From the NCBI GenBank assembly GCA_946406555.1, contig CAMJLB010000010.1, positions 1 through 40,523 of the forward strand: a DNA stretch of 40,523 nucleotides, read 5' to 3'. Under the pieces are notes generated by a model. It was not told the origin of the DNA. It searched no databases and saw nothing but the letters and a program-made list of their open reading frames with translations. A program made the position numbers and the translations under genes. Shown one piece after another: positions 2,811-31,512 of the stretch; position 1 is the stretch's first letter; each line of letters opens with the position of its first letter. The stretch is from an uncultured Prevotellaceae bacterium. Its GTDB lineage: Bacteria; Bacteroidota; Bacteroidia; Bacteroidales; Bacteroidaceae.

Positions 2811-3740
2811 TTAGTTGGCTGCAATGGTGTCTACCTCGACGACGATGTCGTCGTCTTCGCCCGGTATGTATTCCATGGCGCTGTCGTCGAAGTCGAGCGG
2901 GAAGAGGTCGGAGAGCGTACCGCGTGCCCGTCCGTCGAACTCGATTATGCTCGGGTGCTGCTCTATCAGAGCCTTGCCCCGGTAGTAGCACCTGAGCGCT
3001 ATGCGGCCCAAGTTTCTGAATGGGTTCCAGATGCGTATCTCCATATAGTCGATGTCTTTCCACCGGCGCATCTTGCCAATGCCCCGCAGCTCGTCGTAGT
3101 GGTAGGCGCAGATGATGAGCGAGTCTTCGTCGGCCTTGGTGTATTTCTTGCCGTGCACAGTCACGTCGGCATAGACCACCATGTCGTAGGGGTAGAGGTA
3201 TGGATTGTCGTACATCATGGGCAGCACGTTCACCAGGCACGAGTCGGTACGGCGGTCGCTCACGCTGGTGGCGTAGGCCAGCGTGGTGCCCTCGCTGTAA
3301 GCCACGATGCTGTCGTTGCTGAAGCGCGCTATCTGCTCGTTGCCCGTGCGCCACCACAGCTCTTTGTTGGCCGTCTTGTCGGGGAAGAACACCACGGGAA
3401 TCTTGTAGCGGTCGCCCACCACCAGGTTCACCACCCTGCGCTCCAAGGTCATGTTGCCGGCTGCTGTGGGGTCGCCGGCTTCCCAATAGTCGCCGCAGGC
3501 GGTGAGACCGGTCATGAGCAGCAGGCAGCAGGCGGCCAGCAACCCCTTGGCCCCCGAGGTGCCGGCCCCCCCTACTGCCCCCGAGGGGGCTTCTATAGTT
3601 TTGCTATTAGGGGAAGTTTCTATTATAGCCCCCTCGGGGGCCGAAGGGGGGGCTGGTACCCAGGAGGCCGAATGGGAGGCCGAATGGGGGGCCTGATTGG
3701 TATGGTTCGTCGTCATAGTCTCTATGTTTTCGTTCGTCAT
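2811..3740 (-). CDS. Putative lipoprotein (309 aa) with an atypically long N-terminal region containing a family-1 palindromic insert
   Basis: ORF with internal start MTNENIETMTTNH at 3740. This ATG overlaps the upstream stop (ATGA at 3737-3740). Hydrophobic stretch GLLAACCLLLMTGLTACGD has a lipobox (LTAC). Confidence 0.75.
   Translation of the reverse strand: MTNENIETMTTNHTNQAPHSASHSASWVPAPPSAPEGAIIETSPNSKTIEAPSGAVGGAGTSGAKGLLAACCLLLMTGLTACGDYWEAGDPTAAGNMTLERRVVNLVVGDRYKIPVVFFPDKTANKELWWRTGNEQIARFSNDSIVAYSEGTTLAYATSVSDRRTDSCLVNVLPMMYDNPYLYPYDMVVYADVTVHGKKYTKADEDSLIICAYHYDELRGIGKMRRWKDIDYMEIRIWNPFRNLGRIALRCYYRGKALIEQHPSIIEFDGRARGTLSDLFPLDFDDSAMEYIPGEDDDIVVEVDTIAAN
3560..3661. repeat. Family-1 palindromic element, copy A (in-frame in the lipoprotein)
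   Basis: Arms gccggccccccctactgcccccgagggggcttctatag and ctattatagccccctcgggggccgaagggggggctggtacc are imperfect inverted repeats of each other. Near-identical arms occur at 30211-30327. Confidence 0.9.
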
Positions 3741-29742: not shown

Positions 29743-31512
29743 TTATTTCTGGTTGTCTTTCTGCCGTATCTCCACGCGACGAATCTTTCCGCTGATGGTC
29801 TTGGGCAACTCGTCGACGAACTCCACGATGCGGGGGTACTTGTAGGGTGCGGTGACCTTCTTCACATGCTGTTGCAGCTCCTTTACTAGGTCGTCGCCAG
29901 CCTTCGACTTCCACTCCTTGCCCAGCACCACGGTAGCCTTGACCACCATGCCGCGAATGTCGTCGGGCACGCCGGTGATGGCACACTCCACCACGGCGGG
30001 GTGGGTCATCAGTGCGCTTTCCACCTCGAACGGGCCGATGCGGTAGCCGCTCGACTTGATTACGTCGTCTATGCGCCCTTCAAACCAGTAGTAGCCGTCT
30101 TCATCGCGCCAGGCCATGTCGCCCGTGTGGTACAGACCGTCGTGCCAAGCCTCGTGGGTCTTCTCGTCGTCGCGGTAATATTCCTTGAAGAGGCCGATGG
30201 GCTTGGTGCTGGCCCCCCCTACTGCCCCCGAGACAATGGCCCCCCCTACTGCCCCCGAGGGGGCTTCTATAGTTTTAGCGCTCGGTGCTATAGTAGCCCC
30301 CTCGGGGGCTGAAGGGGGGGCCGGCACTCTAATGACGATCTCGCCCTTCTCACCGTCTTCGCACGGCGTGCCGTCGGGCTTCACGAGGGCTATGTCGTAC
30401 TGGGCGTTGGGCATGCCCATCGAGCCGGGCTTCGGCTTCATCCAGGGGAAGGTGCCCAGCGTCATCGTGGTCTCGGTCTGGCCGAAGCCCTCCATCATGC
30501 GTATGCCTGTCTTTTCGTAGAACTTGTCGAACACAGCGGGGTTCAAAGCCTCGCCGGCGGTGGTACAGTACTCTAGGGCCGAGAGGTCGTACTTCGAGAG
30601 GTCCTCGCGTATCATAAAGCGGTAGATGGTGGGCGGGGCGCAGAAGCTCGTCACGCGGTACTTCTCCATCTGGCGCAGCAGCGTGTCGGCATTGAATTTC
30701 TCGTGGTCGAACACGAACACCGTGGCTCCGGCAAACCACTGGCCGTAGAACTTGCCCCAGACGGCCTTGCCCCAGCCCGTGTCGGCCACGGTGAGGTGGA
30801 GCGAGCCGGTGTGCAGGTTGTGCCAGAACACGCCGGTGGTGAGATGGCCCAAGGCATAGAGGAAGTCGTGGGCCACCATCTTCGGCTCGCCGCTGGTGCC
30901 CGAGGTGAAGTACATCAGCATCGTGTCGCTGTTGTCGTTCTTCTCTGCGGGCCGTACAAACTGAGGGGCATGCTCAATCTCTTTCAGATAGTCGTGGAAG
31001 CCTTCGGGAATCTGGTGCCCGATAGCGATGTATTGGCTTACGGTAGGACTCTCTTCCTTGGCCAGCTGAATCTGCCCCGTCACGTATTCATCGTCCACGC
31101 AGACGATGGCCTTCACCGAGGCCCTCGTGTTGCGGTACACGATGTCGTGCTTGGTAAGCATGTGGGTGGCGGGTATGACGACGGCCCCCAGCTTGTGCAG
31201 GGCCAGCATCACCACCCACCATTCGTAGCGGCGCTTTAGGATGAGCATCACCGGGTCGCCCTTGCCTATGCCCAGCGACTGCAGATAGGCGGCGGCCTGG
31301 TCGCTCTGTTCCTTCAGCTGCCTGAAGGTGGCGCGTATCTCCTCGCCCTGGTCGTTGGTCCAGAGCAGTGCCAGGCCGTCGGGCCATTCGCGGGCCCACT
31401 CGTCCATCACGTCGTAGGCAAAGTTGAAGTGCTCGGGAATGATAAACTCCAGGTGCTTATTGTAATCCTCCACTGAGGTGAAGCTTGTCTGCTTCAGAAA
31501 TCTTTCTACCAT
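29743..31512 (-). CDS. AMP-forming acyl-CoA synthetase / AMP-dependent ligase, with an in-frame family-1 insert
   Basis: LMYFTSGTSGEPKMVAHDF (AMP-binding P-loop), EGFGQTETT, LYHTGDMAWRDEDGYYWFEGRIDDVIKSSGYRIGPFEVE, and PKTISGKIRR near the C-terminus. Confidence 0.92.
   Translation of the reverse strand: MVERFLKQTSFTSVEDYNKHLEFIIPEHFNFAYDVMDEWAREWPDGLALLWTNDQGEEIRATFRQLKEQSDQAAAYLQSLGIGKGDPVMLILKRRYEWWVVMLALHKLGAVVIPATHMLTKHDIVYRNTRASVKAIVCVDDEYVTGQIQLAKEESPTVSQYIAIGHQIPEGFHDYLKEIEHAPQFVRPAEKNDNSDTMLMYFTSGTSGEPKMVAHDFLYALGHLTTGVFWHNLHTGSLHLTVADTGWGKAVWGKFYGQWFAGATVFVFDHEKFNADTLLRQMEKYRVTSFCAPPTIYRFMIREDLSKYDLSALEYCTTAGEALNPAVFDKFYEKTGIRMMEGFGQTETTMTLGTFPWMKPKPGSMGMPNAQYDIALVKPDGTPCEDGEKGEIVIRVPAPPSAPEGATIAPSAKTIEAPSGAVGGAIVSGAVGGASTKPIGLFKEYYRDDEKTHEAWHDGLYHTGDMAWRDEDGYYWFEGRIDDVIKSSGYRIGPFEVESALMTHPAVVECAITGVPDDIRGMVVKATVVLGKEWKSKAGDDLVKELQQHVKKVTAPYKYPRIVEFVDELPKTISGKIRRVEIRQKDNQK
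30211..30327. repeat. Family-1 palindromic element, copy B (in-frame in the acyl-CoA synthetase), with a duplicated left arm
   Basis: ggccccccctactgcccccgag occurs twice (30211 and 30239). The core ggccccccctactgcccccgagggggcttctatagtttt...atagtagccccctcgggggctgaagggggggccggcac matches copy A. Confidence 0.9.

Follow-up and report, generated by a model that had tools for sequence, protein, structure and literature searches.

The palindromic repeat described here is best explained, with a probability of roughly 0.85, as a family of short nonautonomous palindromic mobile repeats of rumen Prevotella, kept in genes as a translated, frame-preserving, hydrophilic loop peptide at tolerant sites. We imagine that copies arise by transposition, an external enzyme recognizing the hairpins and moving the element, and that copies entering genes would remain there as translated sequence. 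Purifying selection at the protein level, rather than the insertion step, would then pick the frame, strand, and site. The anatomy suggests a nonautonomous hairpin element that depends for its movement on an enzyme encoded outside it; the positions read as a record of insertions that proteins could tolerate, an account with good support that nevertheless falls short of a full explanation.

Most described protein-coding palindromes come from Rickettsiales; other groups have scattered intragenic REPs. The Prevotella family, rich in GC and apparently independent, lives in rumen bacteria that are abundant. Its recent copies number in the hundreds and are nearly identical, and sister species are free of the element. 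Recent copies and element-free sisters together provide natural occupied/empty pairs for essential enzymes, making it directly testable how such elements move, why genes are preferred, and how proteins tolerate sudden inserts of 12 to 50 residues. A practical consequence is that conserved Prevotella proteins hold repeat-derived insertions that mislead alignment and annotation.

Two copies of the element in the window

The window, the whole stretch of 40,523 nucleotides that was analyzed, is the entire contig C10 of an assembly (G000; 2.97 Mb, 179 contigs, GC 0.55, 85% complete) of a rumen-type Prevotella; Rfam has no match within it. Copy 1 (3562..3656, minus strand) consists of two convergent arms inside a minus-strand gene (2811..3740) and encodes PAPPSAPEGAIIETSPNSKTIEAPSGAVGGAG. 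The nhmmer arm model places a type-a arm (GCCCCCCCTACTGCCCCCGAGGGGGCTTCTATAG) at 3565..3598 on the plus strand, the 3′ arm relative to the gene, and a type-b-like arm (GCCCCCCCTTCGGCCCCCGAGGGGGCTATAATAG) at 3620..3653 on the minus strand, the 5′ arm. The 309-aa host protein found no match in a family search. Its start codon overlaps the upstream stop (ATGA), and a putative lipoprotein-type signal (KGLLAACCLLLMTGLTAC), read by eye, lies downstream of the element peptide.

Copy 2 (30236..30324, minus strand) encodes APPSAPEGATIAPSAKTIEAPSGAVGGA within an insert at residues 397-435 of a 589-aa acyl/acetyl-CoA synthetase (AMP-binding enzyme; 29743..31512, minus strand; PF00501 and PF13193, NF047394). 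The same model finds its type-a arm at 30239..30272 (plus) and its type-b arm at 30288..30321 (minus), and an extra partial arm (30212..30232, plus), 27 nt upstream of the full arm, encodes IVSGAVGGA. Both sites are inverted repeats with arms 80 to 91% complementary. As a single strand, the whole element folds far better than shuffled sequences do, with z-scores from −5.5 to −9.5 (−5.5 and −6.6 for copy 1, −7.6 and −9.5 for copy 2).

An earlier note on this DNA had proposed that the element encodes nearly the same peptide on both strands. The minus-strand peptides that it quoted are present (APPSAPEGAIIETSPNSKTIEAPSGAVGGA in copy 1, APPSAPEGATIAPSAKTIEAPSGAVGGA in copy 2), and the plus-strand ORFs with the quoted peptides sit exactly at 3502-3696 and 30185-30520. 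The resemblance is real, but it is automatic for an inverted repeat and by itself no evidence of adaptation: the reverse complement of such a repeat is approximately itself, so each frame has a near-twin on the opposite strand. A second plus frame, also described as open (GPPYCPRGGFYS..SPLGG), has no stop in copy 1, whereas in copy 2 a TAG closes it (SPLGG, stop, RGG). Stop-free frames show no general excess over shuffles: each copy has two to three of six, and mononucleotide shuffles average 2.5 to 3.3. Among six comparisons of this number, a low P value (0.017) came up once, for copy 1 and dinucleotide shuffles; the rest gave P values of 0.24 to 0.95.

Distribution of the element

Copies in G000 were inventoried with an nhmmer profile of the 34-nt arm; the genomes studied are mostly MAGs, with genes taken from hexamer-based ORF calls. 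The main set comprises 357 distinct arms from G000 and its relatives; a held-out set of 35 loci, 15 of them from a second genus, was fetched after the main set. A strict arm pattern matched 21 of 151 genomes of the same genus (the reversed control gave 0 matches), and six genomes of a second genus in the same family; a sample of 400 further genomes from across the phylum Bacteroidota gave no match. Within the samples searched, the element is thus restricted to two genera of one family. Among the matches listed in a scan of species genomes, the carriers are Prevotella, Prevotellaceae, or Bacteroidaceae MAGs, many of them from the rumen or ruminant gut by name. No copy occurs in the three genomes nearest to G000 by the CoA-synthetase gene (G058, G063, and G033; proteins 88 to 91% identical where they match), and therefore the copies in G000 look recent, or have been lost in these relatives.

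Anatomy of the element

The full unit, of about 90 nt, consists of two convergent, hairpin-capable arms of 34 to 36 nt flanking a short variable middle; in most loci, two-arm copies measure about 77 to 113 nt. The arms are modular and are found single or paired. Neighboring arms are arranged "+-" in 111 cases and on the same strand in 5; the "-+" order was found 0 times. Type-b arms read GTAG-CCCCC-TCG-GGGGG, and type-a arms have GAAG at the tag position. The encoded insert, 12 to 50 amino acids long, is hydrophilic and rich in Pro, Ala, Ser, Gly, and Glu. AAR usually precedes the outer end of a copy, whether the copy is genic or intergenic. Extra partial arms, such as that of copy 2, come in tandem steps of 27 nt (9 codons) and are also seen in C42, C100, and C152.

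The base of the arm hairpin, stem pair 13-26, covaries: it is G-C in 227 arms, T-A in 23, C-G in 3, of the G-T type in 1, and mismatched in 3. The double changes turn APEGA into SPEGD or PPEGG, so that the hairpin is preserved while the peptide gives way.

In some loci, a pair of arms with the usual order and frame encloses 30 to 200 nt of true host sequence (L026, L183, and L376, in glutamate synthase; L038 and L048; L390 and L395), as if half-elements inserted separately or the middle were exchangeable. Simple insertion of a single unit does not explain the pairs at L026/L183 and L390.

Location, frame, and orientation within genes

The earlier note had also envisioned a mobile repeat that survives insertion into genes, and the inventory strongly supports this, since the element stays open and in frame. 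Copies are neither mostly intergenic nor disruptive: 216 of 240 loci are genic (24 are intergenic), and host proteins carrying the insert still give full-length family matches. G000 has 25 loci, 24 of them inside genes and open in the same frame. By NCBIfam, its hosts include DnaE, DnaG, MnmG (two inserts), ArgRS, LeuRS, MetH (two inserts), RecG, and Dxs, as well as D-aminoacyl-tRNA deacylase, 2-oxoacid:acceptor oxidoreductase alpha and beta, an OPT transporter (two inserts), and PnuC. Essential genes are among these hosts, and no second copy of dnaE, dnaG, argS, leuS, mnmG, dxs, or metH was found in this 85% complete assembly. Inserts lie anywhere from 0.08 to 0.99 of the way along the host protein.

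Of the 357 arms, 321 are genic and 36 intergenic. Frame A, which reads ..APPSAPEGATI..KTIEAPSGAVGGA.., accounts for 313 (98%) of the genic arms, frame B for 8, and the frame with a stop for 0. Both the placement in genes and the use of a single frame go far beyond chance, and the frame bias is recovered in the held-out set, where all 59 genic arms read frame A (6 intergenic). The notion that any open frame will do does not hold, however. Frame B is open in the arm too, but it codes for a peptide rich in Phe, Tyr, Cys, and Arg (SPPFGPRGG..SPLGGRRGG) and is used at four loci, with two arms each (L083, L088, L279, and L281). Length is constrained as well: two-arm copies fall into one class modulo 3 in 67 of 71 genic cases, compared with 5 of 10 intergenic ones (Fisher P = 0.001). 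As far as sequence can tell, these biases in frame and length argue that the genic inserts are translated and frame-filtered. The codon-position substitution pattern was set aside as proof of selection; it is uninformative, variable columns being third positions in both orientations.

Nor is use of the element independent of orientation, as the earlier note had supposed. Relative to the gene, elements with one arm of each type are oriented b..a′ in 54 cases and a..b′ in 11. In the favored orientation, the middle of the element encodes hydrophilic residues (mean GRAVY, −0.34), whereas in a..b′ they are hydrophobic (+0.84), a difference through which selection could explain the strand bias.

Frame filtering alone does not account for the whole excess of genic copies. 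A passive filter would leave at most about 75% of copies in genes (90% coding DNA times one of three frames, versus 10% intergenic DNA), but eight genomes together have 115 genic and 5 intergenic loci (P = 9e-10). Something more must therefore favor genic copies or remove intergenic ones: the element may prefer coding DNA when it inserts, or its intergenic copies may disappear sooner.

One genome, G060, is an exception, with 11 of its 20 loci intergenic, the copies sitting between genes or just downstream of them. Intergenic copies (G060 loci L001-L020; C100:2891-2975 in G000; L057) are mostly symmetric, both of their arms being of type b. As with classical REPs, several follow a stop codon at a distance of about 20 nt or less, and an older hairpin seems to surround L001 and C100:2891. 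We considered whether intergenic copies are the remains of broken genes and rejected the idea; in 5 of 5 cases tested, the neighbors belong to different families and are apparently whole.

Occupied and empty sites

Nearly all of the same-genus CoA-synthetase orthologues listed align as residues 1-396 plus about 436-589, skipping the insert. Their empty site reads GEIVVRV-GDR-KPIGLF or close to it, where G000 has GEIVIRV-P(element)ST-KPIGLF. MnmG has two insertion loops at which orthologues show empty sites, and in the same two loops, the MnmG of another genome (G042) has Pro/Ala/Gly/Ser-rich inserts that look decayed. Pairwise DNA comparisons likewise give clean presence or absence at flank identities of about 80 to 98%. 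In these occupied/empty alignments, whose flanks are 2 to 20% diverged, no target-site duplication is visible. We also looked for conspecific pairs among 80 metagenome MnmG loci; none was close enough, and 0 of the 80 carried the element.

Where the structural context can be judged, the insertion sites are loops. In an AlphaFold model of MnmG (mean pLDDT 63, taken for strand-loop-strand context only), insert 1 is predicted to be a disordered excursion between two confidently modeled strands. The insert in D-aminoacyl-tRNA deacylase takes the place of a few residues between two blocks aligned to the E. coli structure 1jke, and that in ArgRS comes after the end of the aligned catalytic block. 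The CoA-synthetase model (mean pLDDT 48, from a shallow alignment) was set aside. More than 30 clusters of sites are common to several genomes, several of them with the element in opposite orientation. This suggests that tolerant loops are used repeatedly, that some of the sites were inherited from a common ancestor, or that the palindrome has inverted.

Alternative explanations

One can envision a mobile repeat specialized for life inside proteins: its sequence would have settled on one strand and one frame that encode a loop proteins can bear, it would not live mainly in intergenic DNA, and its insertion would somehow be coupled to coding sequence. We put this forward tentatively, as a view that may well not hold.

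It seems doubtful that the element is strictly a REPIN, a REP doublet mobilized by a RAYT (Y1) transposase that happened to invade genes. Two convergent hairpin arms with a variable spacer, in the arrangement counted above (111 "+-", 0 "-+"), are what a REPIN would show, as are the GTAG next to the stem of type-b arms and the REP-like placement of the G060 copies between or just downstream of genes. Type-a arms, however, have GAAG rather than GTAG, and REPs are described as mainly intergenic (PMC3116915, PMC3733652). A Y1/RAYT partner was considered and looks unlikely: a search for the Y1 transposase (PF01797) came up empty in both G000 (85% complete) and G024 (56% complete), it is present in some carriers and also in noncarriers with no correlation with the element, and there were no arms near any of eight Y1 loci examined. 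Phage, plasmid, and viral vectors likewise gave no match for the element, and no transposition event was seen in the genomes compared.

Active targeting, in which insertion itself prefers transcribed coding DNA with phase and strand fixed and thus contributes to the bias alongside later selection, we regard as unlikely. In its favor are the excess of genic loci (115:5) over the 75% expected from the frame filter, the 54:11 strand bias, and the use of the same site in several species in opposite orientation (DnaE, C42/L203, L030/L242, and L042/L201). Yet intergenic copies may simply be deleted faster, the hydrophobic middles of the a..b′ orientation allow selection to explain the strand bias, and the shared sites look like protein loops, as expected under selection. 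The sole flank preference seen, AAR, was rejected as the cause of the frame bias; its own codon-phase bias (47:26:15 thousand) is too weak for 313:8:0.

That the peptide benefits its host, as an aid to solubility, a linker, or a regulatory element, and is kept by positive selection is improbable. The excess of genic copies and the recurrent use of the same sites across species would fit, but the hosts are very heterogeneous, the distribution is patchy (21 of 151 same-genus genomes), and same-genus relatives manage without the CoA-synthetase insert. More improbable still is removal of the insert before or during translation, as an intron, intein, or bypass element that leaves the host protein unaffected. 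The interruption of essential enzymes makes this attractive, but removal would relax frame and length, and both are held (313:8:0; 67 of 71 genic pairs modulo 3); a conserved splice site or catalytic core is absent, and the extra tandem units, at 27 nt, also keep to multiples of three. True double-strand coding, with an antisense peptide that is also made and matters, is hardly credible: both strands are open across the element, but this is automatic for an inverted repeat and open frames are generally not above shuffles, and the antisense middle is hydrophobic and variable, in ORFs supported by no gene call.

Relation to known repeat families

Among the closest counterparts of a mobile repeat tolerated in genes are the Rickettsia and Wolbachia palindromic elements (RPE and WPE), short palindromic repeats that lie in frame in many unrelated genes, including those for DNA polymerase III alpha and aminoacyl-tRNA synthetases, and are apparently tolerated; a similar site in an orthologue can hold a different element (PMC10969869, PMC3767692, PMC4224334). 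Like the RPE, the Prevotella element is dispersed, palindromic, and in frame in existing ORFs without destroying them. It differs from both families in its setting, gut bacteria of the Bacteroidota, in its GC-rich sequence of C and G runs, and in its single or paired 34- to 36-nt arms, and at about 77 to 113 nt, its two-arm copies are slightly shorter than RPE (roughly 100 to 150 bp). "Nearly half" of the RPE are genic in R. conorii (PMC10969869), whereas the Prevotella element is nearly all genic in most carriers, with one frame in 98% of its genic arms. RPE genes of R. japonica are reported to be conserved in position across spotted-fever-group genomes (PMC3767692), whereas Prevotella carriers adjoin element-free sister species. 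Common descent with RPE-1 to RPE-10 is unlikely, because the arm pattern had 0 matches outside the two genera in the Bacteroidota sample.

The GTAG/CGTC REPs of Di Nocera et al. (2013) are mainly intergenic, with a minority in genes (PMC3733652). They occur as stem-loop singles and dimers, intragenic dimers encode 20 to 30 aa, stem covariation defines subfamilies, DNA replication and repair genes are among those hit, and loops or linkers were suggested to be permissive (PMC3733652). The Prevotella element shares the stem-loop singles and dimers, the replication and repair hosts, and the stem covariation. In contrast, it is genic at 216 loci and intergenic at 24, carries the GTAG tag beside type-b stems only, and has no RAYT link that we could find. 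REPINs are inverted doublets of hairpin arms with a variable spacer, defined in extragenic space and tied to RAYTs (PMC3116915). The inverted doublet is likewise the unit of the Prevotella element (111 "+-", 5 same-strand, 0 "-+"), but the latter is mainly genic. Because it is mainly genic, its tag is inconsistent, and a RAYT link was not found, we do not file it as a REP or REPIN. MITEs with ORFs (QMITE1 of Coxiella, ERIC) are small, nonautonomous, and built on inverted repeats, and they are capable of in-frame fusion with genes (PMC10969869). The Prevotella element resembles them in all these respects, but it has no visible target-site duplication, it lacks terminal repeats of any known IS, and we found no autonomous partner.

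In behavior the element resembles RPE and intragenic REP dimers, and in build a REPIN. We call it a new RPE-like family, with a new phylum setting, whose preference for genes, and for a single frame, is extreme, and which is set apart from the RPE families by their descriptions rather than their sequences. Judging by the open-access literature, the family is undescribed.

Other repeats in the window

A separate palindrome family is represented at 26377-26490, with 40-nt arms (TACTGACCCCACCCTTGCCCC..) that are 95% complementary; it has 12 loci in the genome, 9 of them outside genes. Related CCCC-rich repeats of the CCCCCGACCCCTCCCTGAATGGAGGGGAGTATATAG type lie at 19050-19085, 21014-21049, and 24823-24858, with few copies, some in called genes. 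A 22-nt tandem repeat (TATCCGTTAGCCTGCAATACAG) at 29524-29679 is intergenic and occurs nowhere else in the genome. The minus-strand ORF at 6140-19162, of 4340 aa, has many internal repeats at 78-nt spacing and looks like a repetitive surface-protein-like gene.
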